Assembly: GCF_000020005.1 (NCBI RefSeq)
Contig: NC_010718.1
Span: forward strand, 2,500,001-2,564,000
Source: Natranaerobius thermophilus JW/NM-WN-LF
GTDB lineage: Bacteria; Bacillota; Natranaerobiia; Natranaerobiales; Natranaerobiaceae
Direction of reading: 5' to 3'
Length of the DNA stretch: 64,000 bases
The stretch's first letter is position 1. The number at the start of each line of letters is the position of its first letter. A program made the translations under genes and the position numbers. The notes under the pieces are model-generated. The model saw only the letters and a program-made list of their open reading frames with translations, was not told the DNA's origin and searched no databases. Shown in pieces: positions 23,453 to 53,022 of this stretch.

Positions 23453-23499
23453 AAAAGAACGGCCATAGTTACCATCCCCTTTCTACCGAAGGTTTCTGG

Positions 23500-23695
23500 C
23501 TTCCGGCCCGGGCAGGTCTCCTGACTTCCGGTCATTGCTTCGTTCTAACCTTCCCCGACAAACTTTTAGTTGTCGAGTGGTTTTATTGCAAACAAAGCTC
23601 ACGGTTACAGTGGCGGGACCGTTCGGGACTTGCACCCGATTCCCTATTATCCCTGAAAGGGCACCCGGCCGACGATATCTTTACTTTTATCCCAG
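23500..23695 (-). promoter_or_regulatory. Cobalamin (B12) riboswitch aptamer
   Basis: Read on the minus strand, the conserved elements appear in order: GGGTGCC, AGGGAATCGGGTGCAAGTCC, CCCGCCACTGTAACCGTGAG and, near the 3' end, the B12 box GTCAGGAGACCTGCC. Adenosylcobalamin binding should cause termination before btuF. It controls the btuF-btuC-btuD operon; its 5' edge is about 75 bp from the divergent SpoIIM-family gene. Confidence 0.95.
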
Positions 23696-47860: not shown

Positions 47861-47993
47861 AAGCAACTCTCCCTTTTTGGAACCTAGTTATGCCATCTAT
47901 ATTTTAACATAATTTACTCGCCCAGTGACAGGTTTAAGATTTTTCCATATCAACTTTTTTAAGACTTTCAGCAAACTTTTCTTAAATAAATTG

Positions 47994-48046
47994 TACGATA
48001 AACACCAGCAGAAAACCACAGCTCTAACTATGGGAATACATCAAAG
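47994..48046 (-). repeat. Copy A of an imperfect inverted repeat pair (IS200/IS605-end-like)
   Basis: On the minus strand it runs from CTTTGATGTATTCCCATAG to GTTTATCGTA. Aligned to copy B (50920-50971, plus strand) it is about three-quarters identical over 52 bp. It contains a small CCATAG/CTGTGG hairpin. Its first bases form the last codon and stop of the ABC permease gene. Confidence 0.5.
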
Positions 48047-49450
48047 CTCACGCTTTAGGGCTTCTAATACATTAATTCTAGTAGCTTTTACCGCTGGTTT
48101 CATCCCGGAGACAACAGCTACAAAAAAACACAATGAAAAACCCGTTATCACAAGAACAGGTGCCACGTAGGACAGTTGCACAATATCGGGTAATTCCGTC
48201 TCAAAAGTATTCTCCAGTAAATAAGGGAGTAAAGCATTGATTCCAGTACTAGCAATCAGGGCGATGGCAATACCTAAAAACGCCCCTATTACTCCTATAT
48301 AGATACTTTCCAAAAGAAAAATCTTACGTACAGTTCCAGGATGAGTGCCAATGGCCTTCATTATGCCAATTTCATGGGACCTTTCAGATACTGCCATGGA
48401 CATGGTATTATAAATTCCTAAAGATGCAATTACGATTCCAATAAGTCCCACAAATATCATGGCAATATGTAAAAATTGAAAATAGAAAGCTACATTATCA
48501 ATAATATCAACTACGGCAAAGGCTCTAAACCCTTCTTCTTCCAGTTGGTCTGAGACATGTTCTACTCGCTCTACTTCGTGGGCAAAAACATTAACCCCTT
48601 CATACAGACCGCCACTTCCCGGGGCCATTTCCATCATCTGATCAAATTCATCGCCCACTTCCTGGCCAGTTAGTTCCAAAAGAACTTCCATGGAACCTCC
48701 CAAAAACTGCATTATTGTATCAATCAGTTCGGGAGACACAACTTGACCCATAGGGGTACCTGTAAAATCTTGTATTTCATCTAAAATACCTTTTGGTAAG
48801 TAAATACTGTAATTAGTGCTGAAGGGATTGTTAGGAGGGCCAAATTCCATGCCTGCCATTTCCGAAGAATCAAATATTCCTACGACCTCTAAATTAAAAT
48901 TTTCCTCCACCTGAGCATCACCCACACCACGGCGAATGATCATATCAATTTCACGGCCCAAAAGCTCCTGGGCCTCTGTTTCTAGATCAGACAACTGGGC
49001 GAACTTCCGATCTAATACCACTTCCTGATCATTTTCAGGAATCCTCCCCCGATATAGTTCACGGCCGGCCTTTATTTCAGAAGCAAAATCTACAATTCCC
49101 ACAGACAAGTCTGTTCTGTGAGAATTTATCTCAAACTTGGGGAGTTGACCCAGGCGGGCACTGCGGGTGACAACCTTCACGTCTTCCATTGCTTCGATCT
49201 CTTGGATATGCTCTCTGTTGAGTTCTGTATTATCCCCTGTTACACCATAAACTGCAATTTGATTTAATTCAGACTGGGCGAGTAATCCCTGAATCACAGT
49301 TTTTTGAATACCAAAACCAAAGGAAGCTAGAAGAATTAAATACCCACAGGCAATGGCGACAGCTATGATAGTCATGACAGTTCTTGATTTATTATTTTTG
49401 AGATTTCTGTAGACCAGATTGTTCATATCCCTAAAAGTCACGGTCATCAT
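48041..49450 (-). CDS. MacB/FtsX-type ABC transporter permease
   Basis: Protein of 469 residues. One N-terminal helix (about 24-45: SRTVMTIIAVAIACGYLIL), a large extracytoplasmic domain (about 60-330) and three C-terminal helices (about 335-360, 385-410, 430-455). VSERSHEIGIMKAIGTHPGT is the FtsX-family coupling motif. It works with the ATPase encoded immediately upstream (20-bp overlap), probably for export or release of a lipoprotein, peptide or lipid. The downstream-most codons lie in an inverted repeat, so its C-terminus may have been altered by an insertion. Confidence 0.9.
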   Translation of the reverse strand: MMTVTFRDMNNLVYRNLKNNKSRTVMTIIAVAIACGYLILLASFGFGIQKTVIQGLLAQSELNQIAVYGVTGDNTELNREHIQEIEAMEDVKVVTRSARLGQLPKFEINSHRTDLSVGIVDFASEIKAGRELYRGRIPENDQEVVLDRKFAQLSDLETEAQELLGREIDMIIRRGVGDAQVEENFNLEVVGIFDSSEMAGMEFGPPNNPFSTNYSIYLPKGILDEIQDFTGTPMGQVVSPELIDTIMQFLGGSMEVLLELTGQEVGDEFDQMMEMAPGSGGLYEGVNVFAHEVERVEHVSDQLEEEGFRAFAVVDIIDNVAFYFQFLHIAMIFVGLIGIVIASLGIYNTMSMAVSERSHEIGIMKAIGTHPGTVRKIFLLESIYIGVIGAFLGIAIALIASTGINALLPYLLENTFETELPDIVQLSYVAPVLVITGFSLCFFVAVVSGMKPAVKATRINVLEALKREL

Positions 49451-50141
49451 CCTGTTCTATAATGTGACCATCTTTCACCCGAATAATTTCATGGGACTTT
49501 TCAGCTACTTCTTTATCATGGGTGACCAAAAGGACTGTAATTCCTAGTTCATCGTTCAGCTGATAAATTAACTCCAAAAGCAGTTTCTCATTATAAGAAT
49601 CCAAACTGCCTGTGGGCTCATCAGCTAATAAAATTTCCGGATTGTTGATTAAAGCTCTGGCCACACTAGTCCGCTGCTGCTGCCCTCCCGAGAGCTGATC
49701 AGGGTAGAATTCGGTATGGCTATATAAACCCACTTTTTCCAACATTTCAAAGACCAATTCTGTACGTCGTCCTGGTGAAATGCCTTTAACCATTAAGGGC
49801 ATTTGAACGTTTTCAAAGACTGTCATGGATGAAATTAGCTGATAGCTTTGGAAAACAAAGCCCAAATTATTTAATCTAAACTTGGCCCATTCATTTTCAT
49901 TGAAGCCCGTGACATCTTTGTCATTTAATACAATCCTACCTGTTCTGGGTTTGAGATAACCTGATAAAAGATTAAGGAGAGTAGATTTACCCGAGCCACT
50001 TTTACCCATAATAGCAGCTATTTTCCCCTGTTCTATTTCGAAGTTGATATTATTGAGGACTGTAAAACCAGTATTATTCCCAACAGGAAAGGTATGGCTT
50101 AAATCTGAAACTTGTATCACATCCCGATCCCCCTGATTCAT
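49431..50141 (-). CDS. ABC transporter ATP-binding protein, LolD/MacB type
   Basis: ATPase of 236 residues: Walker A MGKSGSGKSTLLNLLSG (about 45-61), Q-loop FVFQSYQLISSMTVFENV, signature LSGGQQQRTSVARAL (about 146-160), Walker B ILLADEPTGSLDS. The sequence after the Walker B is typical of the MacB/LolD/FtsE group. It is the first gene of a two-gene exporter. An exported protein gene lies 123 bp upstream on the same strand with a terminator between, so the exporter may have its own promoter in that gap. Confidence 0.94.
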   Translation of the reverse strand: MNQGDRDVIQVSDLSHTFPVGNNTGFTVLNNINFEIEQGKIAAIMGKSGSGKSTLLNLLSGYLKPRTGRIVLNDKDVTGFNENEWAKFRLNNLGFVFQSYQLISSMTVFENVQMPLMVKGISPGRRTELVFEMLEKVGLYSHTEFYPDQLSGGQQQRTSVARALINNPEILLADEPTGSLDSYNEKLLLELIYQLNDELGITVLLVTHDKEVAEKSHEIIRVKDGHIIEQDDDRDF

Positions 50142-50246
50142 AGGTGAATAATAGCTTTATATGGATTTAAAAATGTATTGGAGTTAGAATATTATTCCCT
50201 GAGGGGTCAAAAATTATTTTAATTGAACGAATTATACGGTTTTGGC

Positions 50247-50278
50247 AAAAAAAAAGCCGGAGCATTAGTTGCCCGGCT
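50247..50278 (-). terminator. Terminator after the exported protein gene
   Basis: On the minus strand AGCCGG, 12-nt loop, CCGGCT, then nine T. The first arm lies in the last codons of the gene ending at 50265. Confidence 0.85.
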
Positions 50279-50807
50279 GAATCTCGTAATCTCCTCTTAC
50301 CATTATGTACGCTTTATGCCTAATACTCATCCCCCGACCATCGTCCCTGGGAAAGAGTAAGTGATGGTTCCTAGGGATATCTTCATCTGCATCGATATCA
50401 TTACCAGCGGTCAGATCAGCTATTCCTCCTTGAGGAGAAGTAATAGCATTACCACGGCCAGCTCTCAGGATCATTTCCGTACCATCCCCAGCCATGATAG
50501 TGTCTCCTGCTTCAACTTGCACCACTTCAAACTTATCTAAATTGCCCTGAGGCATGTCCAAGTCTTCCAGGTCGTTTAGTTGAGCTAGCTGATCTTGTAA
50601 CTTTTTATCAACCTCTTCTAGTAATTCATCTTGCAAGTCGTATTTTAACTCATCTTTTAATACTTCTTCCACATAACTCTCGGTTACTAGAGGGTCATCC
50701 TTAGAGCCAGGCTCCGAGACATTGACCGCGCCAGCCCACACAGCTTGTCCCAAAAGTAAAGCTCCTAATACAGTAACAGTAATTATTAAGGCAAGTTTTT
50801 TTGACAT
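50265..50807 (-). CDS. Conserved exported protein of unknown function
   Basis: Protein of 180 residues with a clear signal peptide (hydrophobic 5-22, cleavage near AVWAGA). Then SKDDPLVTESYVEEVL, a short charged coiled-coil stretch (about 45-80) and a compact C-terminal part (about 90-175): QVEAGDTIMAGDGTEMILRA, then DLTAGNDIDADEDIPRNHHL and FPRDDGRGMSI. I recognise this pattern from uncharacterised exported proteins of Clostridia but know no function. ATG at 50807 follows GGAGGAG. Its neighbours are a MacB-type exporter and an oligopeptide importer; a link is not shown. Confidence 0.75.
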   Translation of the reverse strand: MSKKLALIITVTVLGALLLGQAVWAGAVNVSEPGSKDDPLVTESYVEEVLKDELKYDLQDELLEEVDKKLQDQLAQLNDLEDLDMPQGNLDKFEVVQVEAGDTIMAGDGTEMILRAGRGNAITSPQGGIADLTAGNDIDADEDIPRNHHLLFPRDDGRGMSIRHKAYIMVRGDYEIQPGN

Positions 50808-51270
50808 ATGTACTCCTCCATTTTTAATTTTCTATTAAATTCGACAATTTTATAGCTAAATTATACCATAAAGCACCATCAAATAAAACGGAGAAACCTT
50901 TAAAACTTGATTACGGCTCCTTTGAGATACTCCCACAGCTGAAGCATGGGCTTTTGCTGCTGTTTATCGTAAACAATTTAAGTTTCAGTTATCACACAAT
51001 AAACAAATTAAATCAATGTATTGTTAAATATTAATTTTTTTAGCAGGTATTAACTATCTCTATATTGAACCATCTAAGAACACAGAATATTCTTAATTTT
51101 CAGATTTAATTTAATGATAGATAAACTTCTAATTTCGGTGACTAGTTAATAATGTATATATTACAAATAGTAAAGTTTTAAGTAATCAAATTTATTAAGG
51201 GGGGGGGATTTCAAAAAGTATTACCGAGACAAAAGACAAGTTTAATCAAATTTTTACAGGGGGGTTTAAT
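50808..51270. other. 463-bp intergenic region, mostly AT-rich
   Basis: Contains repeat copy B (50920-50971). Also two similar leader segments exactly 60 bp apart (TAATCAAATTT at 51183 and 51243), each followed by a run of six or more G, the second serving as ribosome binding site for the binding-protein gene. Promoters for both flanking genes are expected here; none is clear enough to mark. Confidence 0.5.
50920..50971 (+). repeat. Copy B of the imperfect inverted repeat pair (IS200/IS605-end-like)
   Basis: Runs from CTTTGAGATACTCCCACAG to GTTTATCGTA. It is opposite in orientation to copy A at 47994-48046, so the two bracket the ABC exporter and the exported-protein gene. Hairpin-forming CCCACAGCT/AGCATGGG and the general look recall the right ends (guide RNA scaffold region) of IS605-type elements. 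No transposase or TnpB remains between them. Confidence 0.5.
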
Positions 51271-53022
51271 TTGAAAGGTTATTGGTGGACCTTTGTGACT
51301 GTGTTAGTCTTAAGTTTTACCTTAGTGTTTACTGGCTGTGGCCCCGATGATGCCGATCCTGCCGAAGAAGAACCAGAAGAAGCTCCTGACCCCGACAGAA
51401 AAGTTGAAGAAATTGTAATCAACACTACCACTATGGATTACGACCCGGCTAGAAATGAAGTCGCCAGGTGGGTAGGAGATACTTTTGAAACTGAACTAGG
51501 CGTTGATGTGGAAGTTCAACCTAGAGAGTTTACAACTTTAGTAGACTCAGCTCGTCGGGATCCTGGTGAATCTGAATGGCAAGCCATCACTCTAGGTTGG
51601 TCTGGGCGGATAGAGAGAGCCGACCCTGACATGTTCACTCACACCTTGTTCCATTCCGATCAAGCTTACGACGGTGGAAACAACTATCATAATTATGAAA
51701 GTGATGAATATGACGAGCTAGCAGAACAGGCCAGGATGGCCTTCGATGAAGATGAAAGACAGGAACTGGTCTATGAAATGCAAGAAAAATTAGCTGAAGA
51801 TATTCCCATGATTGTATTGTACAACGAGGCTGAACATCAAGCTCAAAACGTGGAACGCTGGGACAATGTAATACAAACTCCTGAAGGAAAATACAGTGAA
51901 TGGTTCCCCTATTACGCTGAACCATTAACTGATGATGATCATTTTAGAATCGGCTATACCCAGGATTTGGATACATTTAACCCACTAGCAGCTACCACAG
52001 TTTTTGAGTGGAAATTACTACGACTAAATTACGACAAATTGTTCCGAGTTGGCCCTGATATGGAATTGAGGCCCTGGATGGCTGAAGATCACGAGGTCGT
52101 AGACGAACAAACCATAGATGTGGAACTTCGGGACGGTTTAGAGTTTCATGACGGTGAACCTGTTACACCAAGAGACGTTAAATTTACCTTTGATTACATG
52201 ACAGACTGGGGAGTAGGTTATTTTGCCGGTTTCTTAGATCCTCTAGACGAAGTGGAACTACTTGAAGACGAAACAATTCGCTTCCACTTGGAAGAACCCA
52301 ATGCAACCTTCTTGACAAATACTTTAACCCAAATTGTCATCTTACCAAAACACATTTGGGGAGACTTAGTTGAACCAGAAGAGGATCATGTTTGGGGAGA
52401 AATGATGGATGATCCCAGTCAAAGCGAAGGATTATCCCACCCCGATGAATATGAAAATGAAGAAGCCATCGGAAGTGGACCTTATGAACTGGACTACTGG
52501 AACCGAGGTGAAGAAATCAGCCTTGTTCGCAATGAAAATTACTTTGACCATCCCGATTACTATGATGCCGATGAAATAGATGTAGAAAGGATTTCCTATA
52601 TAATTTACGGACACGAAGAAGGTGTTATGGGCGGCCTTGAACACGAAGAAATTGACCTGGTAGGAGATGCTTACATGTCCGATTACGTGGATAGAGTTGA
52701 AGAAATGGAGCATGTGGAATATTCCGGACACACATCCATCGGTTTCCACTATTTATCCTTCGATCTCAGCGAACCACCTTTTGAAGACCACGCCTTTAGA
52801 GAAGCAGCTGCCCACTTAATAGATGCCGAAGAACTACTGGATATTGTCCACGGAGGTTACGGAGAACCCGGTGGTGCAGGTAGAGTAATTTCACCATCAG
52901 TCGAGTTTTGGAGAAATCCCGATGTGCCAGAATACCCCTTTGACCCAGACCGAGCAGTAGAAATTTTAGAAGACGCAGGTTATGAATTTTACGATGGAGA
53001 TCTCTATTATCCCGAAGACTAA
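51271..53022 (+). CDS. Oligopeptide/nickel-type ABC substrate-binding lipoprotein, apparently circularly permuted
   Basis: Exported binding protein of 583 residues. It has a lipoprotein signal (VLSFTLVFTGC, Cys23) and an acidic linker. The order of family-5 segments is rearranged. Residues about 40-222 look like the usual C-terminal lobe (FETELGVDVEVQ; ITLGWSGRIERADPDMF; ESDEYDELAEQARMAFDEDE; IPMIVLYNEAE). The normal N-terminal opening appears only at about 224 (FRIGYTQDLDTFNPLAA), and the protein ends at FDPDRAVEILEDAGYEFYDG, where ordinary members continue into that C-lobe. Start is TTG at 51271 behind GGGGGG. It is very acidic. First gene of an importer operon; ligand unknown. Confidence 0.9.
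   Translation: MKGYWWTFVTVLVLSFTLVFTGCGPDDADPAEEEPEEAPDPDRKVEEIVINTTTMDYDPARNEVARWVGDTFETELGVDVEVQPREFTTLVDSARRDPGESEWQAITLGWSGRIERADPDMFTHTLFHSDQAYDGGNNYHNYESDEYDELAEQARMAFDEDERQELVYEMQEKLAEDIPMIVLYNEAEHQAQNVERWDNVIQTPEGKYSEWFPYYAEPLTDDDHFRIGYTQDLDTFNPLAATTVFEWKLLRLNYDKLFRVGPDMELRPWMAEDHEVVDEQTIDVELRDGLEFHDGEPVTPRDVKFTFDYMTDWGVGYFAGFLDPLDEVELLEDETIRFHLEEPNATFLTNTLTQIVILPKHIWGDLVEPEEDHVWGEMMDDPSQSEGLSHPDEYENEEAIGSGPYELDYWNRGEEISLVRNENYFDHPDYYDADEIDVERISYIIYGHEEGVMGGLEHEEIDLVGDAYMSDYVDRVEEMEHVEYSGHTSIGFHYLSFDLSEPPFEDHAFREAAAHLIDAEELLDIVHGGYGEPGGAGRVISPSVEFWRNPDVPEYPFDPDRAVEILEDAGYEFYDGDLYYPED

Follow-up and report, generated by a model that had tools for sequence, protein, structure and literature searches.

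Does the exporter locus of Natranaerobius thermophilus JW/NM-WN-LF sit inside a transposon, or have two small elements landed on either side of it? The question is raised by a 64,000-nucleotide (nt) stretch of the chromosome (NC_010718.1, positions 2,500,001 to 2,564,000; hereafter the window, whose own numbering is used unless a contig such as C2 is named), in which two repeats of about 52 bp, copy A on the minus strand (47994-48046) and copy B on the plus strand (50920-50971), stand in inverted orientation around an ABC exporter module. We find that A and B are very probably separate insertions of one 47-48-nt non-autonomous family of IS200/IS605 (IS608-type) insertion sequences (IS), and that they most likely flank the exporter by chance.

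The inverted pair, which was pointed out in a preliminary description of the window, is real. Both copies are present at these positions, and alignment of A (minus) with B (plus) gives 40 identical positions of 52 and one gap; the 25-nt arms 47994-48018 and 50947-50971 are the top entry among 14 inverted pairs in a repeat search of the window. When window positions 50880-51000 were used as a BLAST query against the organism's own genome (3,191,453 bases in 3 contigs), the matches were the query itself, copy A (E 6e-4) and 16 more places at E<=0.015. The right end of a full-length IS is among the 16, and all fell inside query bases 40-101. Since copy B retrieves A and 16 other places from 3.19 Mb, the similarity between A and B is above chance.

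A covariance model was then built from 14 copies, with 150 of 1661 first-look candidates scored in the genome; A scores 61 bits and B 65 bits, both having belonged to the training sequences. The model gave 45 matches at E<=10; two of these are the full-length IS's own ends and the 18 lowest-ranking have E>0.05, and with both sets put aside 25 were tabulated. The short copies are scattered over the chromosome, with 21 at E<1e-6 and, the two IS ends not counted, 25 at E<0.01. Their consensus, given for the strand opposite to that used in the preliminary description, is TTTAC/GATAAACAGCAGCAGAAAG-CCCACTGCTTTAGCTGTGGG-AGTATGTCAA/, where the slashes bound the 47-48-nt element and the target is TTAC. 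A strict string test of the 21 copies found TTAC in 13/21, TCAA in 13/21 and AAAG in 17/21, counts that are not independent of the search model because those columns form part of it. Seven of the 21 targets are one base off TTAC, and one copy (L050) has TTAC shifted by a few bases. The 10-base flanks are, by eye, unlike each other, with no target duplication seen, and identity to the consensus ranges from 0.79 to 0.96. By a crude calling of frames (called frames of at least 90 aa, neighbours judged by the direction and length of the nearest frames), 16 of the 21 copies overlap no called frame and the other five overlap by 4, 4, 17, 36 and 54 bases.

The kinship of these ends is indicated by a single full-length IS200/IS605 element in the chromosome, about 110 kb beyond the window (C2:2673507-2675185, minus strand, 1,679 nt). 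Its left end reads TTAC/GAAAAAACCAAACAGAAAG-CCCACTGCTTTAGCTGTGGG-ATGAATG..., with an AAAG guide before the hairpin, and its right end reads ...CCAGAAT-CCCACTGCTTTAGCTGTGGG-AGTATGTCAA/, with a hairpin identical to the left-end one. Its tnpA (133 aa) and tnpB (380 aa) are both open frames that look intact, scoring 145 bits for Y1_Tnp and 85.5 bits for the TnpB domain PF07282 in Pfam, and the HVH motif, the late tyrosine and the RuvC-like acidic positions were judged by eye. For IS608 of Helicobacter pylori, PMC5934647 describes TTAC as the target and left cleavage site (CL), AAAG as the left guide (GL), GAAT as the right guide (GR) and TCAA as the right cleavage site (CR). All four signs are placed correspondingly in the resident full-length IS, which on that description is also like IS608 in having a palindrome at each end and both tnpA and tnpB (PMC5934647).

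The subterminal hairpin is common to the short copies and to this tnpA-carrying element of the same genome. A short copy is laid out as the IS left end up to the hairpin and the IS right end after it, as if the part between the hairpins had been deleted; it is, in other words, terminal-only, two ends joined at one palindrome. Over the whole element, the consensus is 0.90 identical to a composite of the left and right ends of the resident IS. The copies carry no tnpA, as 47-48 nt leave no space for a gene, and they are thus not autonomous IS200/IS605 elements. The earlier likening of A and B to IS200/IS605 right ends was correct as to kinship, but each copy comprises a left end, one hairpin and a right-end tail rather than a right end only. 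Similarly, the remark that no transposase remains is true of this stretch but not of the genome, where an intact-looking tnpA-tnpB element has the same hairpins, and the genome search for the repeat near tnpA/tnpB that had been proposed yields 21 copies and that one full-length IS.

Other IS605 remains occur in the genome. Two relics (L023/L025, C2:855085-856345, and L026, C2:2708736) have a broken tnpA and retain most of tnpB, and a string search beside them did not reveal the hairpin studied here. A weak match (L066, C2:2672408-2672506, E 0.11), about 1 kb away from the full-length IS, has a hairpin arm that is seemingly multiplied, as CCCCGCTAAAG-like units.

With borders refined on the consensus, the features at the two copies are these:

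47993-47996, plus strand: target tetranucleotide of copy A, GTAC (consensus TTAC).
47997-48044, plus strand: copy A, a 48-nt terminal-only IS200/IS605 element whose hairpin has decayed.
50922-50968, minus strand: copy B, a 47-nt terminal-only IS200/IS605 element in which folding is still possible.
50969-50972, minus strand (read 50972-50969): target tetranucleotide of copy B, TTAC.

When the polarity of the IS is followed, A and B have their right (TCAA) ends inward and their TTAC ends outward, which reverses the earlier statement that the copies face outward. The terminal TCAA of copy A occupies 48041-48044, and because it reads TTGA on the opposite strand, copy A supplies the stop codon of the exporter permease, as had been claimed; the TGA is the complement of 48041-48043. 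Hairpin potential had been ascribed to both copies. It is found in B, which folds at -8.1 kcal/mol with its left flank, the flank adding a small stem (7/200 shuffles equally good), but hardly in A, where the hairpin is nearly gone (-0.7 kcal/mol; 112/200 shuffles equally good). Copy A is among the more decayed copies, with an identity to the consensus of 0.80 compared with 0.92 for B.

IS608-type elements transpose as single strands (described in PMC5934647 and PMC6006769), and IS200/IS605 transposition is described as favouring the lagging-strand template (PMC6006769). We compared the orientation of the copies with the direction of replication. In 20 samples of 16 kb, the GC skew keeps a positive sign between base 1 and 1.456 Mb and a negative one between 1.600 and 3.056 Mb; with these signs taken as marks of origin and terminus, the lagging-strand template was assigned to the plus strand before the sign change and to the minus strand after it. 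On this template lie 17 of the 21 copies (P 0.007), or 19 of 25 when the four weaker ones are included (P 0.015). Since genes here mostly follow replication, the copies were also split by gene context, a split chosen after the data had been seen: 9/13 copies between co-directional genes and 8/8 between divergent or convergent genes (P 0.008) are on the lagging-strand template.

Of the three other explanations, all of which we reject, the least improbable, though still very unlikely, makes the repeats conserved terminators or regulatory RNA structures. Read on the permease strand, copy A is a terminator-like hairpin followed by TTTT (48033-48016), and the position of 16/21 copies outside called frames would suit this explanation too; terminator-like sites, however, number 4 across the family, compared with 2.4 (sd 1.8) in shuffles. 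The hairpins of 22 copies (the 21 and one from G001, a relative of the same taxonomic family) pair at 90.0%, far above the 28-53% of slid partners, but shuffled partners pair at 89.1%, and 120/500 shuffles attain the observed value. Covariation scores slightly high, at a level that 45/500 shuffles reach, in an alignment that was itself fitted to the structure, and double changes are confined to one base pair, in 2 cells. An Rfam scan of the window gave 3 matches, with no family at cut-off at A or B, and the hairpin of copy A is decayed. We read the pairing and covariation results as little or no evidence that the hairpin was maintained once a copy had inserted. Copy A may have been co-opted locally as a terminator.

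The reading suggested by the locus itself is that the exporter module moved as a unit between A and B, as a composite transposon. The module consists of three genes, which we regard as bystanders:

48041-49450, minus strand: MacB/FtsX-type permease (FtsX 61.4 bits, MacB_PCD 42.4 bits in Pfam), with its stop codon inside copy A.
49431-50141, minus strand: ABC ATPase of the exporter (ABC_tran 125.8 bits).
50265-50807, minus strand: 180-aa protein with a signal-like N terminus (by eye) and no Pfam family at E<=0.001.

The copies do bracket this module, inverted and 2.9 kb apart, and in 30 relatives even the best matches of the permease are remote (identity of about 30%, covering the C-terminal part), so the module was perhaps acquired somehow; the family also has two close pairs, slightly above expectation (P 0.058). 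However, the flanks of a composite transposon would be near-identical and act as a unit, and both A and B have closer relatives among the other copies than one another. Their identity of 0.765 compares with a mean of 0.787 over the 210 pairs of copies and ranks 139/210; the copy closest to A is L040 (0.84), and those closest to B are L003 and L040 (0.90). In addition, the hairpin is decayed in A and not in B. In single-strand transposition, a mobile unit must have its left end and its right end together on the same strand, which, if the mechanism is that of IS608, copies on opposite strands would not provide. Finally, when 21 copies are placed at random, at least one pair falls within 3 kb in 33% of trials (P 0.33). 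We consider movement as a unit slightly less probable even than a conserved RNA structure, and of the two options in the preliminary description the better is two independent insertion remnants, A and B being two of 21 scattered copies. Because the same element stands at about twenty other chromosomal places, A and B most likely flank the exporter by coincidence. Two further observations on the permease are neutral as to insertion: when the flanks of copy A are joined, the permease frame continues beyond its present end, and of the 8/9 homologue loci inspected, 7 stop exactly at the alignment end and 1 extends one residue.

The second close pair, L003 and L005 (C2:2410850 and 2412412), has both members on one strand, separated by 1.5 kb and with unlike flanks; the interval holds two stop-to-stop frames of 155 and 213 aa. 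The arrangement may reflect a local hop of a short copy. Only these two of the 21 copies have the guide AAAT instead of AAAG, a single shared base that was spotted after the fact.

Least probable is that the copies are repetitive extragenic palindromic (REP) repeats served by a REP-associated tyrosine transposase (RAYT): they are short, dispersed, mostly intergenic single palindromes in a genome with a Y1 transposase, but the matching tnpA is accompanied by tnpB within an ordinary IS that has both ends, with TTAC/TCAA and AAAG/GAAT, whereas REPs reportedly carry GTAG/CGTC tags.

The observed anatomy, copy number, full-length relative with matching ends, strand bias and lack of special kinship between A and B point to insertion, presumably with TnpA as its agent; neutral decay of the inserted copies is presumed to have followed. 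Several points weigh against separate insertions of one IS608-type family. The exact parent has not been found, as the left-spacer consensus of the 21 copies differs from the resident IS at 6/15 bases (manual count). There is no empty site to show among the 3 genomes of the order, with one genome per species compared. As a single strand, the consensus prefers pairing between spacer and hairpin (-7.6 kcal/mol; 7/200 shuffles as good), whereas both ends of the full-length IS form the plain hairpin (-6.3 and -9.2 kcal/mol). Four of the 21 copies, copy A among them, are on the other strand, and two pairs within 3 kb were observed where 0.40 were expected.

On the explanation of A and B as such insertions, which we nevertheless hold very probable, the family was founded when an IS with identical hairpins at both ends lost everything between them, leaving the left spacer, the left guide AAAG, one hairpin and a right tail ending in TCAA. 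On this view, single-stranded copies inserted 3' of TTAC, for the most part on the lagging-strand template, and subsequently decayed. We tentatively entertain, at somewhat below even chances, that the single-hairpin form is itself mobile, one core deletion having been followed by some twenty movements by the TnpA of the resident IS. Such a form would use one hairpin, one left guide and the right TCAA, whereas IS608 uses two hairpins. In its favor, the 21 copies share a left spacer unlike that of the resident IS, with no core-bearing element carrying that spacer found by the model search of the genome, and the two other IS605 relics of the genome retain most of tnpB; its single hairpin, single guide and altered consensus fold speak against it. 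Alternatively, a two-hairpin mini-element, or the full IS, may move and then collapse at each site. Because all 21 strong copies are collapsed and no core-bearing element with the same spacer was found, movement of the short form or collapse of a mini-element is favored.

Among 31 genomes searched with the model, matches at E<0.01 occur in the organism's own genome and in G001 only. The latter, the only other genome of the taxonomic family compared, has two: a short copy and, by eye, a right end adjacent to where a tnpB ends. Weak matches in three other relatives (E 0.018-0.061) were not counted; one of them, L069, resembles an IS605 left end by eye. A 22-base string covering left spacer and guide had 0 exact matches in a genome-contig collection that possibly does not include records of the genome itself. 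The same collection holds 64 loci with TnpA relatives, and the upstream stretch was inspected for 21/64; L092 (Halanaerobiales) and L095 (Nitrososphaeraceae) have, by eye, a left end of the form TTTAC-spacer-AAAG-CCCA hairpin, and L128, the sole locus flagged by a left-end regular expression, was not counted. In G031 (Halanaerobiales), 8 weak model matches at E<=1 include, by eye, six right ends and one left end. One further match there, L163 (G031:C99:4260-4312; 23 bits, E 0.09), has TTAC, a hairpin-like middle and AGTATGTCAA, and may be a terminal-only copy in another bacterial order. The left end and one of the six right ends bound a mini-element of about 410 bp (L159/L156, G031:C193:4326-4735), which by eye retains nothing of the genes but the beginning of tnpA and the last part of tnpB.

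Elsewhere in the window, two versions of a 37-nt stretch, each containing a run of 6-9 G, lie 60 bases from one another and are 73% alike (51183-51279); they stand upstream of a solute-binding protein gene and perhaps form a doubled ribosome-binding region. On the minus strand, 35170-37184 matches group II introns (Rfam RF02001, RF00029) and 23494-23683 a cobalamin riboswitch (RF00174, 117 bits).

In the open-licence literature, we found no paper linking Natranaerobius with IS605. Relative to IS608 as described in PMC5934647, the short copies differ in having one hairpin, a left guide only and no genes. Closest to them are the terminal-only 52-bp palindrome-associated transposable elements (PATEs) of Haloquadratum walsbyi (HqIRS46, ISHwa23 derivatives), which in the account of PMC3119063 have IS605-type ends with a 19-22-bp palindrome at both, have lost the core and one palindrome down to 52 bp, and are multicopy. 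The elements studied here differ from those described there in occurring in a bacterium, with an IS608-like TTAC target and TCAA end, in having a full-length relative with an intact-looking tnpA in the genome, and in the divergence of the copies. A PATE-like element of Halanaerobium hydrogeniformans, likewise an ends-only IS605 derivative in a haloalkaliphilic bacterium, is described as 271 nt long and single-copy, retaining its complete right end together with the end of tnpB (PMC7290912); unlike the copies here, the IS605 elements reported for that organism show no strand bias, with 10/22 tnpA on the leading strand (PMC7290912). Free-standing IS605 stem loops on Borrelia plasmids are also hairpins without a transposase, some at gene 3' ends, but several are said in PMC2775950 to show compensatory changes, whereas here these amount to one pair in two cells, no more than in shuffles.

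Collapsed terminal-only IS605 elements are therefore already known from Haloquadratum, and the family of N. thermophilus, judged by its sequences, is a bacterial counterpart. An apparent transposon around an exporter becomes a probable coincidence. Because the genome holds a plausible helper transposase, the mobility of terminal-only elements, a question left by the account in PMC3119063, can now be tested with defined sequences.

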